This document shows, one piece after another, positions 22,442-31,512 of a DNA stretch of 38,091 bases. Where the stretch lies: the NCBI GenBank assembly GCA_003671055.1, contig QWPV01000022.1:1-38091 (forward strand), read 5' to 3'. Position 1 is the stretch's first letter; the number at the start of each line of letters is the position of its first letter. The stretch comes from Planctomycetota bacterium. Lineage in GTDB: Bacteria > Planctomycetota > Phycisphaerae > Phycisphaerales > SM1A02. The position numbers were made by a program, and so were the translations under genes. A model generated the notes under the pieces. The model was not told the origin of the DNA. It did not search any database and saw only the letters and a list, made by a program, of their open reading frames with translations.

Positions 22442-23952
22442 CGCGCTGCTCCATCGATGCGTCGCTTGAGTGCTTCCTCTGCCTTCTTCCGATCATCGAA
22501 GGAAAATTTCTGCTCGCCAATGATTTGGTAATCCTCGTGTCCCTTGCCTGCGATCAAGACGACGTCGCCTTCACCAGCGCTCGACACTGCGAATGCAATC
22601 GCCTTCGCTCGATCGATTTCTACGACAACATTCGCCTTCGTCTGCGCAGGCACCCCACTCTTGATTTCAGCGATGATCGCTTGAGGATCTTCGGTGCGCG
22701 GGTTGTCGCTCGTGATCACAACATCATCAGCGCCTTCGCACGCGACCTGCGCCATGCGCGGCCGCTTCGTGCGATCTCGATCTCCGCCACAACCGAACAC
22801 CACGCGCAATCGTCCACCTGGCGCGAGTGTTGGGCGAAGTGCGCGAAGCACATTCGCCAGCGCGTCATCAGAGTGCGCGTAATCGACCAGTACGCTGAAT
22901 CCAGCGCCGCCCGTTGCGACTGGTTGCAGTCGACCGGGGGGCGCCTCGCAACGCGCAAGAACCGCGAGCGCTTCTTCAAGCGGCACTCCCACACTGCGTG
23001 CAGCCGCGAGTGCTTGCAGCGCATTCATCGCGTTGTGACGACCTACAAGCGGCAACATCAATCGGTGCTCGCATCCAAGCGCAGATCCGCTGAGCAACAA
23101 CTCCATGCCCGTTGCACTCATCGATTCAATGGCTGCGAAAAACTCTGCTTCCGCATCGATCAGACTTGTGCGCCACACACGAGCACCGCGCGCGCGAGCC
23201 GCGTCGATCATCACAGTTGACCATGCATCATCCACATTCACAATCGCCGTTCCCTCTGCGGTGAGCATGGAGAAGAGTTTGGCTTTCGCCGCCGCGTAAT
23301 GCTCCATCGATCCGTGGTAATCAAGATGATCACCGGTGAGATTCGTGAAGAGCGCGGTCTTGAATGCAAGCGCGGCGACGCGCTTCTGATCGAGCGAATG
23401 ACTCGACACTTCCATCGCGACTGCAACGCATCCATTGTCGAGCATGCGGGCGAACATCGACGAGAGTTCAAACGCTGGCGGGGTCGTCAAACTCGACACG
23501 GTGCGCTTGACACCATCATCAATCTCCACCGTGCCGATCAACCCGCAGCGACGCGAACCCTTCGTCAAGAGTTGCTGCAACAGATAGCTCGTCGTCGTCT
23601 TTCCATTCGTGCCCGTGATGCCCACCACATGAAGCGCGCTCGCGGGGTTCCCGTGAAATCGTTCTGCGAGCACGCCCGCTGCTGCTGCTGGATCGTCGAC
23701 GATCGCGAGCGCGACAGATGCATCGGTTCCCTCGGGCAACACCGTTCCCGTAGGACCAACAATTGCTGCGGCTCCCGCTTCAAGTGCCTGCGCGATGTAT
23801 GCGCGGCCATCGGCTTTCACGCCAACGCGCGCAAGGAACAAGCAACCCCGCTTCGCACGTCGCGAGTCTTCGCACAGACTCCAGATCTCAGGGTCAGTAC
23901 TGAGTGGTGCGTCGGCAAGCGAAAGTCCGGCAATCAATTTCGAAAAACGCAT
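22438..23952 (-). CDS. murE: UDP-MurNAc-dipeptide:meso-DAP ligase MurE
   Basis: MurE adds the third amino acid to UDP-MurNAc-L-Ala-D-Glu in the cytoplasm. The predicted product has 504 residues. The P-loop is GITGTNGKTTTSYLL. The carbamylated-lysine region follows in the central domain, and LTGDHLDYHGSMEHYAAAK is the usual MurE metal-binding stretch. The specificity motif is SDNPRTEDP. DNPR with the Arg is the signature of meso-diaminopimelate-adding enzymes, whereas lysine-adding ones have a different motif (known family rule), so the wall is probably DAP type. ATG 23952 is used, 11 bases after the stop of the AI-2E-type gene; the upstream extension overlaps that gene. The ribosome site is weak, consistent with coupling. 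Confidence 0.95.
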   Translation of the reverse strand: MRFSKLIAGLSLADAPLSTDPEIWSLCEDSRRAKRGCLFLARVGVKADGRAYIAQALEAGAAAIVGPTGTVLPEGTDASVALAIVDDPAAAAGVLAERFHGNPASALHVVGITGTNGKTTTSYLLQQLLTKGSRRCGLIGTVEIDDGVKRTVSSLTTPPAFELSSMFARMLDNGCVAVAMEVSSHSLDQKRVAALAFKTALFTNLTGDHLDYHGSMEHYAAAKAKLFSMLTAEGTAIVNVDDAWSTVMIDAARARGARVWRTSLIDAEAEFFAAIESMSATGMELLLSGSALGCEHRLMLPLVGRHNAMNALQALAAARSVGVPLEEALAVLARCEAPPGRLQPVATGGAGFSVLVDYAHSDDALANVLRALRPTLAPGGRLRVVFGCGGDRDRTKRPRMAQVACEGADDVVITSDNPRTEDPQAIIAEIKSGVPAQTKANVVVEIDRAKAIAFAVSSAGEGDVVLIAGKGHEDYQIIGEQKFSFDDRKKAEEALKRRIDGAAR

Positions 23953-23963
23953 CGCGAGTGTGC

Positions 23964-25322
23964 TCAGTCGTGCTGAATGGGAAGTGGATCGGCTACGCGG
24001 CCAGCGGCCCATTCCTTGAGTCGAGGCAAGACTTGTCGTTGGATCGCAATCTTTCCGCAAGCCGCCGCAGGAATTGCGAGCAACATGCCGTACACGCCAG
24101 CGATGGAACCACCAGCGAGAATCGCAACGACGATCGTGACAGGATCAAGATTCGTTGCCTTGCCCGCAATGATCGGCGTGAGTATGTATCCCTCGATCGA
24201 TTGCACAATCGTGAACACGACGCTCGGCCACAACACGATCGCGATCAAGCCCATGCGTTGCTCGACAGGAAGTTCGAACTGCGCGATGAAGAGCATGCCG
24301 ATCGCAACTGGAAGTCCAACGCCGCCGAGATACGGAACGATCGACAACGCACCCGTGAGCACTCCGAGCGCGATTGCATACGGCACTCCGCAGATCTGCC
24401 AACCGACCGCAAAGCCCACCGCCATACACACACAGATGACGATGCGACCGCGCACGAATCCTGCGACAGCGCGATCCATATCCGCGACAACACTGAAGAT
24501 GACTTCCTTCTTTTCGTCGGGCACAAGCTCTTTAACGAATGCGACCACGCGCGGAAATGACACGCTGAAGAACCAGAAGTAGAACGGGATCAAAAACGTC
24601 ACGAGGCTGATGCGAAGCACTGCCAACGCGAAGGCGAGCATCTGGCTCGCGCTACTGCCGAGCAACGAAACCCACGGGATTTCAAGCGTGGAAATGCCAG
24701 CAGCAACTTCACCGACGATTGCAGATGTTGCGCTCCTCGGCTCCGCTGTCACAACGGGAGTTGCAGCTTCAACCACGACGCTGCCGTCCACACCTGTTGC
24801 TACATCAAGCCCCATCGGATGGCCGAATTGTTCGAGAAGATCCGATGCGGTCTTCTGATACTCGTCAGGAAGGGATTCAACGGCACTCGTGATCGCGCTG
24901 TCGTAACGACCATTGCGCACGCCATCGAGAAGTTCAACTCCCTGACCAACAACAAGTGGAAGTCCGATGGCAATCGTGATGCCGAAGACAAGCCCACTCG
25001 TCAACAGAATCACACTCACCGCAACCGGGCGCGACACGAAGCGAAACGTGCACAGGTAGCAGACAACGGGTTCGAACAAATACGCAAGCGCAAGCGCGAC
25101 GAGCAGCGGCACTGTGACTGTGCGCATCTGATAGCCCATGTACAGAATCCACAAGACAAGACCTACGACGAGAATGTCGCGGATGCCTTGAATCTGCCAG
25201 AGATGCAATTTGCGGAGATCAGGAGTCGCGGTTGCCTTTGCCTTCGAGGAAGCACCACAACTGCAAGTGGAACCGCAGCAGCCAGAGGTTTCAGGTTCTA
25301 AAGGTTTCTCGGGAGTCGCCAT
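23964..25322 (-). CDS. AI-2E family transporter (PF01594-type) with Cys-rich N-terminus
   Basis: The predicted product is a 452-residue polytopic inner-membrane protein. Hydrophobic segments begin at about residue 50 (ILVVGLVLWILYMGYQM, VPLLVALALAYLFEPVV). A long periplasmic or cytosolic helical stretch follows. The C-terminal half has the family hallmarks YLGGVGLPVAIGML and a final IIAGKATNLDPVTIVVAILAGG, abbreviated here as NLDPVTIVVAILAGG, followed by GVYGMLLAIPAAA. Members export diverse small molecules or act as Na+/H+ antiporters, and most do not move AI-2, so substrate is unknown. An unusual feature is the short cytosolic N-terminus with GCCGSTCSCG, four cysteines in eight residues. 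ATG 25322 has GGAG eight bases upstream. It is the first gene of the minus-strand run into murE. Confidence 0.85.
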   Translation of the reverse strand: MATPEKPLEPETSGCCGSTCSCGASSKAKATATPDLRKLHLWQIQGIRDILVVGLVLWILYMGYQMRTVTVPLLVALALAYLFEPVVCYLCTFRFVSRPVAVSVILLTSGLVFGITIAIGLPLVVGQGVELLDGVRNGRYDSAITSAVESLPDEYQKTASDLLEQFGHPMGLDVATGVDGSVVVEAATPVVTAEPRSATSAIVGEVAAGISTLEIPWVSLLGSSASQMLAFALAVLRISLVTFLIPFYFWFFSVSFPRVVAFVKELVPDEKKEVIFSVVADMDRAVAGFVRGRIVICVCMAVGFAVGWQICGVPYAIALGVLTGALSIVPYLGGVGLPVAIGMLFIAQFELPVEQRMGLIAIVLWPSVVFTIVQSIEGYILTPIIAGKATNLDPVTIVVAILAGGSIAGVYGMLLAIPAAACGKIAIQRQVLPRLKEWAAGRVADPLPIQHD

Positions 25323-25420
25323 CCGTGGAGCTCCAGTCAAGGGTAGAGCGCCAGAATTGACGCCCGTGAAGTGGCACGCATCCTACTTCACACCAGCGGG
25401 AAAATGCGGAGCTCTCCCTC

Positions 25421-25504
25421 AGGCGAAGCGGATTCACTCCGCGAGCCGTACGAAAGCGCGTGATGAATTTGCCGCTTGGGGCAGAATTCATCAGAAGCGC
25501 TCAA
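25421..25504. repeat. REP-like palindromic repeat unit, copy 1
   Basis: The 84-base unit has two hairpins. The first is GCGGA-TTCAC-TCCGC. The second, at 25462-25492, has arms GATGAATT and AATTCATC plus TGCC/GGCA, a loop GCTTGG and one bulged G. AGCGC before and GCGCT after the second stem can extend it. The unit ends in AGCGCTCAA. Confidence 0.75.
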
Positions 25505-25507
25505 ACA

Positions 25508-25591
25508 AGGCGAAGCGGATTCACTCCGCGAGCCGTACGAAAGCGCGTGATGAATTTGCCGCCCGGGGCAGAATTCATCAGAAGCGCTCAA
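25508..25591. repeat. REP-like palindromic repeat unit, copy 2
   Basis: This is a near-identical 84-base unit starting three bases after copy 1. The first hairpin is as in copy 1. The second hairpin (25549-25579) keeps both arms unchanged, while the loop reads GCCCGG instead of GCTTGG. Confidence 0.75.
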
Positions 25592-25611
25592 CTAGCACGC
25601 AACTACGACTC

Positions 25612-25696
25612 AGGCGAATGCCGGCTTCGCCGGCGAGCCGTACGAAAGCGCGTGATGAATTTGCCGCTTGGGGCAGAATTCATCAGAAGCGCTCAA
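25612..25696. repeat. REP-like palindromic repeat unit, copy 3 with a different first hairpin
   Basis: The second hairpin (25654-25684) and the intervening CGAGCCGTACGAAAGCGCG are as in copies 1 and 2. The first hairpin is instead GCCGGC-TTC-GCCGGC, a different sequence with the same stem-loop form at the same place. Confidence 0.75.
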
Positions 25697-25724
25697 CTCT
25701 CGCTCAACTCTCGCTCAACTCTCG
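25692..25724. repeat. Three tandem copies of an 11-bp unit
   Basis: CTCAACTCTCG is repeated exactly three times at 25692, 25703 and 25714, starting within the end of repeat unit 3 and finishing seven bases before the stop of the Minf_1886 gene. The unit looks like an amplification of the AGCGCTCAAC end of the palindromic repeat. Confidence 0.7.
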
Positions 25725-25731
25725 CCGCCGC

Positions 25732-26142
25732 TCAGCCGCGACCGATGGAGGTTGCGAGCTCGCGTGGCGAGAAGGCTTCGTCAAAATCGTAGACGTTGCC
25801 GAAATCCTCGAGCCGATCCTGTTCGTTTCGGCTCATGAGTCCCGCCTCAATGAGGGTGTAGACCATCGTGCCGAAATCCCCGGTTCGCTGCACCCGCCAG
25901 TGGGCGAGCACGGCAGGCGCGAGGAACCCGTACTGGCTGATCGCGAGGTCGCGCAGTCCGAAACACAGTTGCTGCCCCGTGATGTGTCCACCTCGGAACG
26001 GCTCGTTCGCGTGCACAGACTGCGTCGCATGCATGCGCTGCACCGTGTGCTGGAGACCCTGCTGCAGAAACTCATACGCCTCAAGCGGATAGGGTCCACG
26101 GGCGAGAAGAAATTCATGGAGTTGAGCGCGGTCGAGTGGCAT
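25732..26142 (-). CDS. Minf_1886 family protein (uncharacterised)
   Basis: The predicted product has 136 residues, as expected for this small family common in Planctomycetota and Verrucomicrobiota. The recognised pattern runs YPLEAYEFLQQGLQHTV, then HITGQQLCFGLRDLAISQYG, then WRVQRTGDFGTMVYTLIEAG, then a C-terminal EDFGNVYDFDEAF. Its function is unknown; it lacks a signal peptide and membrane segments, so it is probably cytoplasmic. ATG 26142 matches the usual family N-terminus; a TTG 54 bases upstream extends the frame with a better A/G-rich leader and cannot be excluded. It points toward the repeat block, which begins right after its stop, and diverges from the OmpA-like gene. Confidence 0.85.
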   Translation of the reverse strand: MPLDRAQLHEFLLARGPYPLEAYEFLQQGLQHTVQRMHATQSVHANEPFRGGHITGQQLCFGLRDLAISQYGFLAPAVLAHWRVQRTGDFGTMVYTLIEAGLMSRNEQDRLEDFGNVYDFDEAFSPRELATSIGRG

Positions 26143-26316
26143 GGGGAGTTCGCTGATCCTATCGGCGCGCGCAGCGAGTTTCCCGCAAGAGAGCAAGTTC
26201 TCTTTCTCAACACGCGCAATTGTTGCGCACTTTTCACCCGAAGCAGAGTGCGGACGCTACACTCGCTGCCGTTCAAGGACTAGCTGCCGTTTTACCTTTG
26301 AACAGCGCATCTGCAG

Positions 26317-26332
26317 TCGGTTTTTAAACCGA
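26317..26332. promoter_or_regulatory. Short inverted repeat upstream of the OmpA-like gene
   Basis: TCGGTTT and AAACCGA flank two bases, about 70 bases before ATG 26403. AAAAGGAG follows immediately but has no start codon at a usual distance, so it is probably not a ribosome site for a missed gene. It may be an operator. Confidence 0.25.
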
Positions 26333-26402
26333 AAAGGAGCCTCGATCACGGAACGATCGAAGCACGCGCTTCCTACTTTCAGCGGCAGCACAAGGCATTC
26401 GT

Positions 26403-27248
26403 ATGCGCTTCAACTTACTCGCTCTCGGCACCACAACACTCGCCTTCGCCACACTCACCGGCTGCATCCCTCAGACGCAGTACGACGATTTGATGACGAA
26501 CAATCGCAGCCTCAAGCAACAGGTCGCACAGTTGCAAGGCGAACTCGATACATCATCAGCGAACGAAGAAATGCTTCGTAAGCAGCTTGCAGAAGCCGCT
26601 GCCGATCTTCTCAAGGCAAAGACTCTTGCAGGTGCGAGCGATGAAGATATTCAAGCGCTCACCGATCGTTACAACAAGTTGCTCAGCCAAGTGAACGCAC
26701 TTGATGTGCTTCCTACTGATGTGTCTGCAGCACTCGAAGATATCGCTGCAGCGAGCGGTGGCTTGCTCACCTTCGACAAGGCCAAGGGCATGCTTCGCTT
26801 CTCGAGCGATGTCACCTTCGACTCTGGTTCTGCGCAGTTGACGGAGAAGGCGAAGAATGTGCTCGCGCAAGTCGCTGCTGTGCTGAACGGAAATTCTGCG
26901 AGTGGCCTCGAAGTGCAAGTTGTCGGGCACACCGATTCGGTGGCCATCCGCAAAGCAAACACTGTTGCGCAACACCCCACCAACATGCACCTCTCTGCGC
27001 ACCGTGCAATTTCAGTGCGTGAGACTCTTGTGAGTGACGGCGTTGGCGCGAACCGATTCATGGTTGCTGGCTACGGCGAGTTCCGTCCTGTGACGGAGAA
27101 TTCAACCAAGGGCGCGCAAGCCAACCGCCGCGTCGAGCTCTACCTCAAGCCAAGTACCGAGACCACGCCAACCGTGACCGCAACGGAAACTACCGTGACT
27201 GCACCAACGCCAGTCGCAGCCACGACCGACGACGACAACGTGAAGTGA
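26403..27248 (+). CDS. OmpA/Pal-like peptidoglycan-associated lipoprotein
   Basis: The predicted product has 281 residues. The N-terminus is a lipoprotein signal: a basic start, hydrophobic core and the lipobox LTGC, giving Cys21 as the lipidated residue. About residues 25-100 are a likely coiled coil (NNRSLKQQVAQLQGEL, EEMLRKQLAEAAADL). The OmpA-type domain covers about 130-245, with VTFDSGSAQLTEKAKNVL, VVGHTDSVAI and the NRRVELYL ending that contacts peptidoglycan. The expected TDxxGxxxxNxxLSxxRAxxV pattern is present as HTDSVA ... NMHLSAHRAISV. The last 35 residues are Thr/Ala/Val-rich and probably disordered. I infer an outer-membrane lipoprotein tethering the membrane to the wall. AAGG lies eight bases before ATG. 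It is a single-gene unit with its own terminator. Confidence 0.9.
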   Translation: MRFNLLALGTTTLAFATLTGCIPQTQYDDLMTNNRSLKQQVAQLQGELDTSSANEEMLRKQLAEAAADLLKAKTLAGASDEDIQALTDRYNKLLSQVNALDVLPTDVSAALEDIAAASGGLLTFDKAKGMLRFSSDVTFDSGSAQLTEKAKNVLAQVAAVLNGNSASGLEVQVVGHTDSVAIRKANTVAQHPTNMHLSAHRAISVRETLVSDGVGANRFMVAGYGEFRPVTENSTKGAQANRRVELYLKPSTETTPTVTATETTVTAPTPVAATTDDDNVK

Positions 27249-27290
27249 TCGAACTCGCACCCAGTCGATTCGACAATCTGTGCACATCCC

Positions 27291-27332
27291 GAGAACCGCG
27301 CCCCGTACCTCCGCGGCGCGGTTCTCGCTTTT
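27291..27332 (+). terminator. Intrinsic terminator after the OmpA-like gene
   Basis: A perfect 12-bp stem, GAGAACCGCGCC (27291-27302) with 27315-27326, encloses a 12-base loop and is followed by GCTTTTCC. It begins 43 bases after the stop. Confidence 0.8.
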
Positions 27333-27551
27333 CCGCGGTTCTGCGAAGAGATGCGCGAACTTTTCGGACGCTGCCTGCGTACCGAAACACCAAATGCTCA
27401 CCCATCCTTCACCTTTTCTCATTTGGAAAACCTAATTCCTGATCTAGACTCAAGGCACTTCACCCGCGAATGCATTCAGATGCATCGGCGGTTGTTGTGA
27501 TTCCATGAATTGTCCTGCTGACTGTTACCTCATCCTGGAGACTGACGAACG

Positions 27552-30527
27552 ATGCGACACGCATTCCCTGCCTTTATATGTTTGGCGACGAGTCTTGTTT
27601 TCGCCAACGCCACCCTCGCGCAAGTCGTCACCTTGCATGAAGTTCGCGTGGATCAACCGGGTGCCGACACCGAAGAGTATGTCGAGGTCAAGGGCGCACC
27701 GTTGTCCTCGCTCAAGGGATACAGCCTCATCGTCATCGGTGATGACGACAATCAATTGCCTCCTGCGCAGAACGGGGTGATTGAACAAGTCATCTCGCTC
27801 AGCGGATCCATTCCTGCGAGTGGATACTTTGTCGTGGGCACGAGCTCGCTCTCGCTTGCAACTCCAAATCTCATCAGCGCACTCGGGTTTGAGAACATCG
27901 ACAACCTGACCATCTTGCTCGTGCAAGGATCAACCGCCGTCGTTGGCGACGATCTTGACATCAACGACGATGGCATTCTCGACACAACTCCGTGGGCATC
28001 GCTCGCAGATAGCGTCGCATTCTGGAACGGATTCTCTGACGGCACCGTCGATGACTTCGTCTACTCACTCAATCGCGTTGGACCGGATGCGGGAGTTGTG
28101 CCTTACGCCGCATGGAAGTGCGAACTCGCTTCGCAGTGGAATGTCGGCACACAAGATCCGTACGCGGGCATTGATTCGCCCGGTGCTGCAAACGGCAGTT
28201 GCGCGCCAGAACCTGTGAAGATCAACGAGATTCGAATCGATCATCCTGGTACGGACACCGATGAATACTTCGAGTTGAAGGGAGCGCCTGGCGCATCGCT
28301 CGCTGGTCTCACATATATCGTGATCGGCGACGGATCCAATGCTGCAACGAAGAACGGCGTCATTGAATGTGTCGTTCCGCTCGGCGCGTACAGCCTCGGC
28401 GGCGACGGACTGCTCTCTGTTTCGAAACTTGCAACGCTCGTCTTCGCGGGCAGCGTCGATGTTGGTCCGGTTGCGGCGATCAACTTCGAGAACTCTGACA
28501 ACGTCACCCACATGCTCGTCTCAGGATTCACCGGCGCTCTCGCCGCAGATCTCGACACCAACGAAGACGGCGTACTTGATGTCCTTCCATGGACCGCAAT
28601 CATTGACTCCGTCGCTCTCGTCAAGCCAAACACAGGCGTGCCTGCGGCTGGCGATGAGTGGTGGTACTCCCCAACAACCGTGGGACCTGACACGAGTTTC
28701 GTTCCAGGACATGCGTATCGATGCACACCAACGGGTGGATGGAAGATCGGACCATTCGACGGCGCGGCAGCCGGACGCGATTCCGCTGGCGATGTCAACG
28801 ACATCTGCTCGAACTGTGGTCCAGGAACGGGCAGCTGCTATGTTGCGGTGCTCACTGCAGGTTGCTCCGACACAGACTGCTGCAACGCAGTCTGCATCAC
28901 CGATCCAACCTGCTGCGACACAACATGGGACGCAGGCTGCGTCACGATTGCAACCGGCACTTGCCTCAACGGCGCATCGCCTCCAGCACTTCTCATCAGC
29001 GAACTCCGCGTCTCGGATCCATCGGGCACCGACATCAACGAGTATGTCGAACTCAGCGGCGCGCCTGGAACTTCGCTCAACGGCGTCACGCTTGTGGTGG
29101 TGTCTTCAGCGAATGCAGGCGTGAACCAAGGCAAAATCGAAGCGACCGTGAGTTTCAACGGACTCTCCATCGCGAAGGACGGCTTGCTCCTCGCGACCGA
29201 AGCATCCTTCACGATGAACGCGTTCCCTGATGCACTTCGCTTCCTTTCGTTCAACGATTCAGGCACGAAGAACTACTTCCTCGTTTACAACTTCACCGGC
29301 ATCGTCGGTGATGACCTTGATGCCAACGATGACTGCACACTCGATGCAAGCCCATGGGGTAGCGTGATTGATGTGGTTGCGCTTCTCGACAATGAAGTGA
29401 ACTGCAACTACGCGGCCATCAGCGTTGGTCCTAACGGCACGCAACTCGCGCCGCACTTCTTCCGATGCGCAGACGGTTCGCCTCGCATGGGTCGCTTCGA
29501 TCCATTTGATCTCACCGGTTATGACACACCAGGACTTCCACCGAGCGCGATCTGCCCTGCGATCAACTCGTGTGGCGTGAAGGGTGGAACGGACTGCCGC
29601 GTGGCCGTCGCAACTCCTGGATGCTCCGATGCAGTCTGCTGCGACAGCGTCTGCAGTCGCGATCCAACCTGCTGCGAAGTCGTGTGGGATCAGGCGTGTG
29701 CAGATCTTGCGAATTGCTCGTGCTATCCACCAGTCATTGTGGCTGATGTCCGCATCAACGAGATTCGTATGGACGACACCGCACTGTTGACCGATCAACA
29801 AGAGTTCTTCGAACTTGCTGGTGCTGCCGGAACGGATCTCGTCGGATTCACCTACGTGGTGATCGGCGACGGCACTGCTATCCAAGGCTCAGGCGTTATC
29901 GAGTGCTTTGTCAATCTCGATTGCACCACGATTCCAGCGAGTGGCTACTTCGTGGTTGGAACAGCGACCTTCACTGGATCGATTGCGAATCTCGTGAGTC
30001 CATACATCGTCTTTGAGAACAGTGACAACGTTACGCACATGCTCGTGTACAACTTTACGGGCACGATTGGTATGGATCTCGATGTCGATAATGATGGCGG
30101 ACTCGACTTCACCCCTTGGAGTCAGATTGTGGACTCCGTCTCAATCATTGAGTCAGCCACACTTCCTCCAGTAGGTACCGAGTACGCATACAGCGCAAAT
30201 CGCGTTGGACCAGATATCTCAGGAACAACACCAAGCGTGCCGTTCCAAGTGAGCTTCTGCTCAACGACAGGTGCGTGGGCAATTGGTACGCAAGATCCTG
30301 CAGCTGCGACAAGTCTTGACACTCCTGGCGCTGTGAGCGTCGGCTGCGACAAGACCACCACTCCATGCGTGAGCGACTTGAATGGCGACGCCGTCACCGA
30401 CGCCGCTGACCTTGCGTCGCTTCTCAACGGTTGGGGCGCATCTGGCGCGACCGATCTCGATGGCAACGGCGTCACGGATGCCGCTGACATCGCAGCCCTT
30501 CTCAACGGCTGGGGCCCCTGCCCGTGA
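27552..30527 (+). CDS. Secreted four-module lamin-tail-like protein with Cys-rich modules and C-terminal dockerin
   Basis: This 991-residue protein begins with a clear signal peptide ending NATLAQ; GGAG precedes ATG by eleven bases. Four related modules start near residues 25, 221, 479 and 731 with the pattern (I/V)xE(I/V)RxDxPGxDxxEY(V/F)EL and GxSLxGxT, which I read as lamin-tail-domain (LTD)-like. Each holds a Ca-loop-like DxxxDG and then PWxxxxDSV, for example DLDINDDGILDTTPW. Cys-rich modules with CCNAVCITDPTCC and CCDSVCSRDPTCC separate modules 2/3 and 3/4. The C-terminus from about residue 938 has two dockerin-type loops (DLNGDAVTDAAD, DLDGNGVTDAAD), each followed by LLNGWG. The protein is probably surface-exposed or secreted and calcium-dependent. 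No cohesin is in the window, so partner and role are unknown. Confidence 0.85.
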   Translation: MRHAFPAFICLATSLVFANATLAQVVTLHEVRVDQPGADTEEYVEVKGAPLSSLKGYSLIVIGDDDNQLPPAQNGVIEQVISLSGSIPASGYFVVGTSSLSLATPNLISALGFENIDNLTILLVQGSTAVVGDDLDINDDGILDTTPWASLADSVAFWNGFSDGTVDDFVYSLNRVGPDAGVVPYAAWKCELASQWNVGTQDPYAGIDSPGAANGSCAPEPVKINEIRIDHPGTDTDEYFELKGAPGASLAGLTYIVIGDGSNAATKNGVIECVVPLGAYSLGGDGLLSVSKLATLVFAGSVDVGPVAAINFENSDNVTHMLVSGFTGALAADLDTNEDGVLDVLPWTAIIDSVALVKPNTGVPAAGDEWWYSPTTVGPDTSFVPGHAYRCTPTGGWKIGPFDGAAAGRDSAGDVNDICSNCGPGTGSCYVAVLTAGCSDTDCCNAVCITDPTCCDTTWDAGCVTIATGTCLNGASPPALLISELRVSDPSGTDINEYVELSGAPGTSLNGVTLVVVSSANAGVNQGKIEATVSFNGLSIAKDGLLLATEASFTMNAFPDALRFLSFNDSGTKNYFLVYNFTGIVGDDLDANDDCTLDASPWGSVIDVVALLDNEVNCNYAAISVGPNGTQLAPHFFRCADGSPRMGRFDPFDLTGYDTPGLPPSAICPAINSCGVKGGTDCRVAVATPGCSDAVCCDSVCSRDPTCCEVVWDQACADLANCSCYPPVIVADVRINEIRMDDTALLTDQQEFFELAGAAGTDLVGFTYVVIGDGTAIQGSGVIECFVNLDCTTIPASGYFVVGTATFTGSIANLVSPYIVFENSDNVTHMLVYNFTGTIGMDLDVDNDGGLDFTPWSQIVDSVSIIESATLPPVGTEYAYSANRVGPDISGTTPSVPFQVSFCSTTGAWAIGTQDPAAATSLDTPGAVSVGCDKTTTPCVSDLNGDAVTDAADLASLLNGWGASGATDLDGNGVTDAADIAALLNGWGPCP

Positions 30528-30570
30528 TTGAGCGCTTCTGATGATTTCTGCCCCAAGCGGCAAAATCATC
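30528..30570. repeat. Inverted single copy of the REP-like hairpin with a compensated base pair
   Basis: Read on the minus strand this is the second hairpin of the 25.4-25.7 kb units, with arms GATGATTT and AAATCATC, TGCC/GGCA, the same GCTTGG loop and the same AGAAGCGCTCAA end. Compared with those copies one base of each arm has changed and pairing is kept. It begins one base after the stop codon of the lamin-tail-like gene; the first hairpin of the full unit is missing. Confidence 0.75.
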
Positions 30571-30590
30571 GTGATTGAATGAAATCCATC

Positions 30591-30629
30591 ACCGCCCTCG
30601 GACACTCGTCCGAGGGCGGTTTTCTTTTT
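30591..30629 (+). terminator. Intrinsic terminator after the lamin-tail-like gene
   Basis: A perfect 12-bp stem, ACCGCCCTCGGA (30591-30602) with 30609-30620, encloses a six-base loop and is followed by TTTCTTTTT. It leaves little room for a promoter before the MlaE gene. Confidence 0.9.
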
Positions 30630-30675
30630 GCGTCGGACAGCGATGCGCGGCGATGAGTTACGCTTGCGCCGCTGC

Positions 30676-31512
30676 ATGGAACTCGTTCTTGATCGTTTCG
30701 CTTCTCTCGGTCTCAGCGTTCGACTCTTCCTCGATCGCATCGGTCGCTTCTCGCGATTTGCAAGTCGCACGCTGACGCTTGTTTTCACGCAGCCTTCGAC
30801 GTGGATGCGCTGGCGACAGATTGGACCGCTGCTGTACTCCGTTGGCGCGTCAAGCGTCATTGTGGTGAGCATCACTGGCGCATTCATCGGAATGATCCTC
30901 GCGCTTGAAGGCTTCGATCAATTTGCTGCGCTCGGACAAGAAGCGCAGATGGGCGGCGTGATCGCAGCAGCCGTCGTGAAACAAATCGGTCCCGTGCTTG
31001 CCGCGGTGATGCTCGCAGGCCGCGTGGGCGGCGCACTCGCGGCTGAACTCGGCACGATGAAAGTCACCGAGCAACTTGATGCGATGCGCGCGATGAGTGC
31101 AGATCCGATCAAGACGCTCGTCGTGCCACGCGTGGTTGCGTGCGTCATCATGACGCCGATTCTCACGATCTATTCAGATCTCCTCGGCATTCTCGGAAGC
31201 TTCGGCATCATCTGTGGCATGTACGGCGTCACGCGCGCCGACTACTGGTACTCCACCACGCAATTCCTCAGTGGATGGGATCCGCTCAACGGCGTGATCA
31301 AGAGCCTCGCGTTCGGGCTCGCGATCGGTCTCATAAGTTGCTACCGCGGATTCCGTTGCGAAGGCGGCGCTGCAGGCGTCGGTCGCGCGTCGACGCAGAG
31401 CTTCGTCGCCAGCTTCCTCACCATCATTGTGGTGAATCTCTTGTTAGCGCAGTTCCTCCAGTCATTGCAGCGTTGGATTGATCCCGAAACACTCCGCACT
31501 CTCGCGAGTTGA
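30676..31512 (+). CDS. MlaE/YrbE-type ABC transporter permease
   Basis: The predicted product has 278 residues and belongs to the permease family that moves phospholipids or other lipids between inner and outer membranes. After an N-terminal amphipathic helix come VSITGAFIGMILALEG, AAVVKQIGPVLAAVMLAGRVGG, the hallmark ELGTMKVTEQLDAMR (ELGtMkvtEQIdAl), VVPRVVACVIMTPILT and a C-terminal GLISCYRGFRCEGGAAGVG, abbreviated as CYRGF and GGAAGVGRAS, then a final membrane helix. All are typical MlaE motifs. ATG 30676 fits the family N-terminus; ATG 30643 in the same frame is an alternative, and neither has a clear ribosome site. It is followed after 19 bases by the transglutaminase-like gene. The partner MlaF ATPase and MlaD substrate-binding genes are not in the window. 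Confidence 0.88.
   Translation: MELVLDRFASLGLSVRLFLDRIGRFSRFASRTLTLVFTQPSTWMRWRQIGPLLYSVGASSVIVVSITGAFIGMILALEGFDQFAALGQEAQMGGVIAAAVVKQIGPVLAAVMLAGRVGGALAAELGTMKVTEQLDAMRAMSADPIKTLVVPRVVACVIMTPILTIYSDLLGILGSFGIICGMYGVTRADYWYSTTQFLSGWDPLNGVIKSLAFGLAIGLISCYRGFRCEGGAAGVGRASTQSFVASFLTIIVVNLLLAQFLQSLQRWIDPETLRTLAS

Follow-up and report, generated by a model that had tools for sequence, protein, structure and literature searches.

The closest described systems are the repetitive extragenic palindromic (REP) sequences and their relatives. According to one account (PMC3733652), REPs of the GTAG type are thought to be moved by REP-associated tyrosine transposases (RAYTs), REPs of the CGTC type are said to have no dedicated transposase, and REPs occupy spacers between convergent or same-direction genes, their ends providing stop codons. 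Here we examined a 38,091-nt stretch of a Planctomycetota genome (contig QWPV01000022.1 of assembly GCA_003671055.1; hereafter the window), which is contig C16 of a 2.85-Mb, 100-contig genome (G000, the own genome) and carries three tandem copies and one inverted copy of a palindromic repeat. We consider, with a probability of roughly 0.6, that these copies belong to a REP-like, non-autonomous mobile hairpin family of Phycisphaerales, in which each full unit consists of two hairpins within a conserved frame. Like REP, BIME and REPIN elements as far as the same source describes them, these are short dispersed palindromes, mostly extragenic, single or clustered, which form families differing between species, lie in convergent or same-direction spacers and supply stops with their ends. 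They differ from those elements in their length of about 84-105 nt, in having two dissimilar hairpins in a fixed order, in a GTAG that is not conserved, in a frame common to several genera with exchanged stems, and in that no linked RAYT was found.

The window units are 84 nt each and follow the plan TCA-GGC-GAA-hairpin 1-GCC-GTACGAA-AGCG-hairpin 2-CGCT-CAA, with CAA instead of the initial TCA in unit 2. Hairpin 1 is a short stem about TTCAC or similar letters. Hairpin 2 has a longer stem, in which one base is bulged, and stands on an AGCG/CGCT foot, around which the frame letters read CSARAGCG/GCGCTCAA. The full units stand head-to-tail, at spacings of 87 and 105 nt (Table 1). An earlier sequence-only reading of the window had described three tandem units and one inverted hairpin with covarying arms and a uniform GCTTGG loop. 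We found all four copies, with arms GATGAATT/AATTCATC in the three units and GATGATTT/AAATCATC in the inverted copy, as described; however, unit 2 has GCCCGG as its loop, a bulged G adjoins the inner stem, and the inverted copy comprises hairpin 2 and the tail only, hairpin 1 being missing. When folded as single-stranded DNA, each full window unit formed two hairpins (z -3.2 to -3.4), and the truncated copy reached a z of about -2. Inspection of the window units by eye revealed no stretch of at least four T behind hairpin 2 on either strand.

A blastn search of the own genome with unit 1 gave 58 matches at E≤10, the best match at another locus having an E of 6.7e-37. A covariance model (R1), built from 33 copies, gave 102 matches at the same threshold, and the repeat thus extends well beyond the four copies from which the sequence-only reading had started. 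We took 75 of the 76 R1 rows at E≤0.0063, corresponding to 75 places in 55 sites; the dropped row was an opposite-strand reading at C10, and the weaker rows were mostly the same palindromes read on the opposite strand. A match at window positions 22792-22865 (E 0.043), inside a Mur ligase gene, was judged to be due to chance. Three types of hairpin 1 (A, B and C) were each found with both arm versions of hairpin 2, indicating that the two hairpins assort as modules. In some own copies a second-hairpin variant, AGCGAAACCGCGCG...CGCGCGGTCAGTCGCGAACGCT, stands behind a retained hairpin 1, and a variant resembling it, GCGAAAGCGGGC...GCCCGCCAGTCGCGAGCGCTCAA, was found in another genus.

In 33 aligned copies, standard pairs filled 98.1% of 792 cells, as compared with 90.0% in shuffles and 30-43% in slid controls, and two-sided changes were found in 9 of 24 pairs, with 61 two-sided cells against 22.3 expected in shuffles. 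This pairing figure is flattered, because these same sequences had served to derive the fold and eight of the 41 extracted copies were left out; these eight, which include the truncated copy of the window and a hybrid hairpin (C18:9026), had no alignable hairpin 1 or its surroundings, so that the percentage leans toward structure. We also analyzed 12 distinct hairpin-2 sequences found in other genera, namely the 43-nt sequences among the frame-pattern matches listed (the pattern itself fixes the frame letters); this second set was likewise 98.1% paired, with two-sided changes in 4 of 13 pairs (reached by 11 of 500 shuffles) and 11 two-sided cells against 2.6 (reached by 0 of 500). The arm changes, which had been expected to be compensated, are mostly so, apart from a minority comprising the hybrid hairpin and 15 unpaired cells among the 792. 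When ten representatives from eight genomes were folded, nine showed z values of -3.6 to -7.3, and hairpin 2 was present in all ten minimum-energy folds. The pairing data do not separate selection on structure from palindromes copied as units, the two possibilities that had been offered for the paired changes.

Synteny with three congeners, G001, G002 and G003, holds in the flanks of both window sites (large pieces at 70-76% identity). Both sites are empty in all three, and the window copies therefore look like insertions. Four further junctions were compared in the same species. No element was found at junction D (C6:21769) in any of the three congeners or at junction A (C18:9026) in G001 and G002, A not being read in G003; junction B (C18:13936) holds an element of G001's own type in G001 and none in the other two; and junction C (C6:12933) holds the own type of G001, with no element in the approximately 230 nt read in G002 and G003. 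In all, 15 of the 18 comparisons showed no element, two showed one of that species' own type, and one was not read. At loci chosen as element-bearing, occupancy in a single species was also seen between G001 C7 and G000 C75, and at both spacers of G000 C46 and G001 C2. Among the loci read, a near-identical partner at another locus (at least 97% identity over 95 nt) was present for 9 of 39 copies in G003, 9 of 28 in G001 and 8 of 14 in G002. The family is characterized by its fold, its fixed unpaired letters, its empty sites and its amplification within single species, where species-own stem variants occur, some of them as near-identical dispersed copies.

At E≤0.001, R1 matched 7 of 61 genomes: all four of the genus (63 matches in G000, 61 in G001, 21 in G002 and 56 in G003), three of the family's 33 other genomes (13 in G031, 2 in G025 and 1 in G017) and, under stricter filters and with a model biased to the own species, none of the 24 genomes from the order's other families. 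With laxer filters, 77 matches at E≤1 were obtained in G031. Of 181 genomes of the family, 18 contain a frame pattern, WCSARAGCGAG-N20-50-GAGCGCTCAA; the named records of these carriers are metagenome genomes titled Phycisphaerales, Planctomycetia or similar. The reversed control pattern gave one match, in G022, which has a single forward match; we regard this genome as a doubtful carrier, since the control matches there too. The stem letters vary by species, and the frame, which is partly fixed by the search pattern, is constant. Several G001 units (L378, L389 and L419) are followed by a small extra hairpin, CACCGACTCCGTCGGT, resembling an added module. The frame pattern also matched one viral contig, which looks like an ordinary terminator hairpin and was rejected as a sign of phage carriage; the hairpin 2 of the window had no match among viral contigs. 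The family did not turn up in a literature search restricted to open-access papers, a result that leaves room for a published description elsewhere.

Gene contexts were taken from a simple purpose-made gene caller, not from annotation. Among 45 classifiable intergenic sites of the own genome (one further site lies inside a predicted gene and nine were not classifiable), 27 were convergent, 14 same-direction and 4 divergent, as compared with 8, 54 and 25, respectively, among 87 other junctions of the same loci, from which element sites were excluded by subtraction (27/45 vs 8/87 convergent, p 1e-9). Convergent spacers made up 14 of 35 element sites vs 3 of 57 other junctions in G001 and G003, where 7 of 40 loci had no element by regular expression, and 15 of 42 vs 18 of 179 in ten other genome records. 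The frame scan had yielded at least 118 stretches, of which 57 were used for context; 35 records from G001-G003 and one 275-nt scrap were excluded, and 25 stretches from other phyla were kept out of the counts. Genes flank 174 copies on both sides, and in 125 of these a gene points at the tail, its stop lying inside the tail in 13 cases and 1-30 nt away in 42. The tail's TGA serves as the stop of the orthologous gene at junction C, in G000 as well as in G001. The sequence-only reading had proposed that many copies with paired arm changes in gene-end spacers would favor a mobile or functional element, and such copies are what we observed, most of the compared sites being empty in congeners.

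This placement, the paired stem changes and the occupancy of some junctions in two species (see below) would also be expected of a selected gene-end element, such as an RNA 3' end stabilizer, a terminator or a gyrase site, that spread mainly by ordinary recombination. We think this quite unlikely as an account of the family, given that congeners lack an element in 15 of the 18 site comparisons. Moreover, a terminator-like hairpin already stands at window site 2 and behind the gene at site D in all four species. The units occur in both orientations in same-direction spacers (60 antisense, 33 sense; p 0.007, with tandem copies counted singly), which indicates a bias but no strict RNA strand. No Rfam match was found in the window at gathering scores or in positions 25200-31000 at E≤1, and on ten other loci Rfam matched only a tmRNA and two tRNAs, which adjoin elements, and none of the elements themselves. 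Four tandem units abut a tmRNA gene (L036:575-924, 937-1270), and a unit at L344 follows a tRNA-like sequence, the matching G001 junction (L389) being occupied as well. The units may nevertheless have a gene-end function kept by selection.

The own genome has five Y1/RAYT-like genes with products of about 386-411 aa (one partly masked; L031-L035, on contigs C68, C79, C25, C29 and C98), all of them outside the window, within which the sequence-only reading had seen none. Their best NCBIfam model is the REP-associated tyrosine transposase, with a score under the cut-off, and their flanks bear distinct short repeats of the ACAGGCA/TGCCTGT type (one side is masked in L035), which are unlike the two-hairpin unit. 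These genes fit a separate TIRYT-like family of the kind presented in PMC3733652. The element frame was found in none of 25 Y1 loci (5 own and 20 from carriers; 121 kb), a subset of the carriers' Y1 genes. In G001, G002 and G003, which are 94-100% complete, PF01797 (Y1) had no match at E≤0.01, and NF047646 had none at E≤1 except for one weak match in G001 (E 0.021), rejected as false, which lies antisense to a ketosynthase-like frame. A search of genome contigs with one RAYT-like protein gave no match.

The REP tags were sought as well. Neither GTAG nor CGTC precedes the foot of hairpin 2 or hairpin 1 on the element strand in any of 33 own copies of the main own subfamily; past the tail, the other strand carries GTAG in 11 and CGTC in 3 of the 33. 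Across all species, GTAG on the other strand was present in 24 of 226 tails (11/50 in G000, 12/29 in G001, 1/42 in G003 and 0/105 elsewhere), where it reads CTAC on the element strand, right behind the CAA that follows the foot. The family resembles the orphan CGTC REPs in that no transposase is tied to it, but their tails, according to PMC3733652, mostly fit CCA rather than CAA. As to inverted doublets of palindromes such as those of BIMEs and REPINs, the window and the listed own arrays are arranged head-to-tail, and opposed pairs are common in G003.

The presence of the five genes, the CTAC/GTAG tails and the more frequent occurrence of PF01797 in carriers (13 of 18 genomes vs 56 of 163 non-carriers; p 0.004, kinship ignored) would be in line with an ordinary REP/RAYT system, in which the units are moved by a host Y1 transposase, RAYT or TIRYT, that in some species has been lost, escaped detection or is unlinked. 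We regard this as unlikely, in view of the 25 Y1 loci that lack the element, the different repeat flanking the own genes, the rarity of the tag, and the near-identical dispersed copies in G001-G003, where no Y1 match was obtained at E≤0.01. Y1 genes may have had a past role. Since a conserved tag and a linked transposase were looked for and not found, we file the family as one that works like REPs, not as a member of REP/RAYT; the REP-like dispersal suggested in the sequence-only reading thus holds, and the link to RAYT is not supported. By analogy, the units also recall IS200/IS605 elements and their miniature derivatives, which have hairpins near their ends, the TCA and CTCA letters being candidate cutting sites; unlike in those elements, none of the 25 loci (in a search that did not extend to TnpB) shows a Y1 gene with unit ends. 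Nor did a recurring neighbor gene emerge as the mover: among 632 proteins predicted from 148 loci, only four families recurred in at least three genomes. We take these to be an ABC ATPase, a dehydroquinate synthase, a prepilin and GroEL.

We propose that the unit may be recognized through its folded single strand together with unpaired frame letters, namely CSARA ahead of the foot of hairpin 2, TCA ahead of hairpin 1 and CTCA behind hairpin 2. An enzyme acting in trans would copy or move it in single-stranded form, much as TnpA-REP acts on REPs, with cutting presumably near TCA/CTCA if the chemistry of REPs and IS200/IS605, as given in PMC8266576, applies here. The mover would probably be other than the Y1/RAYT genes now present in the carrier genomes. 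Paired arm changes could arise if only copies that still fold were moved and if hairpins were swapped as modules. A stronger version, in which only the fold and some 20 letters, unpaired or in the foot, stay constant, the stems are freely exchanged and the family spreads without Y1/RAYT through a new recognizer or a repurposed host enzyme, is one that we put forward tentatively.

Alternatively, the units might spread without an enzyme, by template switching during replication and gene conversion between palindromes. Tandem copies show variable spacing (87, 93 and 105 nt), the hairpin-2 loop of one own copy (C10:5713-5810, L045) is inverted relative to other units, as if the hairpin had flipped, and module exchange, short tail repeats and the direct repeats around the truncated window copy point in the same direction. 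We nevertheless find such a process improbable, as near-identical dispersed units and a frame shared by multiple genera are more easily obtained through a recognizing protein.

Several observations weigh against a mobile two-hairpin family. Occupancy in two species was found at three more junctions (G000 C7:15693 and G003 C60; G000 C44 and G001 C12; G000 C22:32731 and G003 C8); these were chance finds at loci chosen as element-bearing, a choice that favors occupied pairs, and together with junctions B and C they could represent kept positions or hot spots. A general target-site duplication was considered and rejected: flanking repeats averaged 5.84 nt in 57 copies vs 5.41 nt when re-paired, a mean reached by 12 of 300 shuffles and inflated by tandem tails. 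Regarding the fold, the hybrid hairpin has a mismatched arm position, L403 folds no better than shuffles (z -0.9), hairpin 1 is present in only 8 of the 10 minimum-energy folds (not in L046 and L257) and the foot in only 6 (not in L403, L046, L098 and L257). The excess of PF01797 among carriers counts on the same side, as does the failure of the neighbor-gene and Y1/RAYT searches to find the mover enzyme, and the evidence for movement consists of sequence comparison. If the mobile reading is correct, this is another orphan REP-like family, in Phycisphaerales, whose frame is common to genera and whose sister species allow filled and empty sites to be compared. Two questions would then become accessible to testing: by what means orphan REP-like repeats are moved, and whether the paired arm changes stem from selection for folding as the units move or from a function at gene ends.

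Table 1. Coordinates of the repeat units and adjoining features in the window.
Feature	Position	Strand	Remarks
Full two-hairpin unit 1	25421..25504	+	Hairpin 1 core 25428-25442, then linker
Hairpin 2 of unit 1	25455-25501	+	Foot AGCG/CGCT, tail CAA
Full unit 2	25508..25591	+	98% identity to unit 1
Full unit 3	25613..25696	+	Other hairpin 1 stem, GCCGGC/GCCGGC
Tail mini-repeats (CGCTCAACTCT and similar)	25690..25724	+	Three consecutive, behind unit 3
5'-truncated inverted copy	30528..30570	-	Hairpin 2 and tail
Left direct repeat GTGATTGA	30524..30531		TCAATCAC on the minus strand
Right direct repeat GTGATTGA	30571..30578		
Intrinsic-terminator-like hairpin and T-run	30592..30629	+	Behind the truncated copy

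The direct repeats bracket the truncated copy, and their TTGA portion consists of the tail's own letters; the left one includes the TGA stop (30525-30527) of a predicted gene at 27582-30527. The terminator-like hairpin behind this copy is also present in G001, G002 and G003, all of which are without the copy. The predicted gene encodes a 981-aa protein with internal repeats and no Pfam match. Its C-terminus contains an LNGWG repeat, and the repeat DNA has matches elsewhere in all four genomes of the genus.

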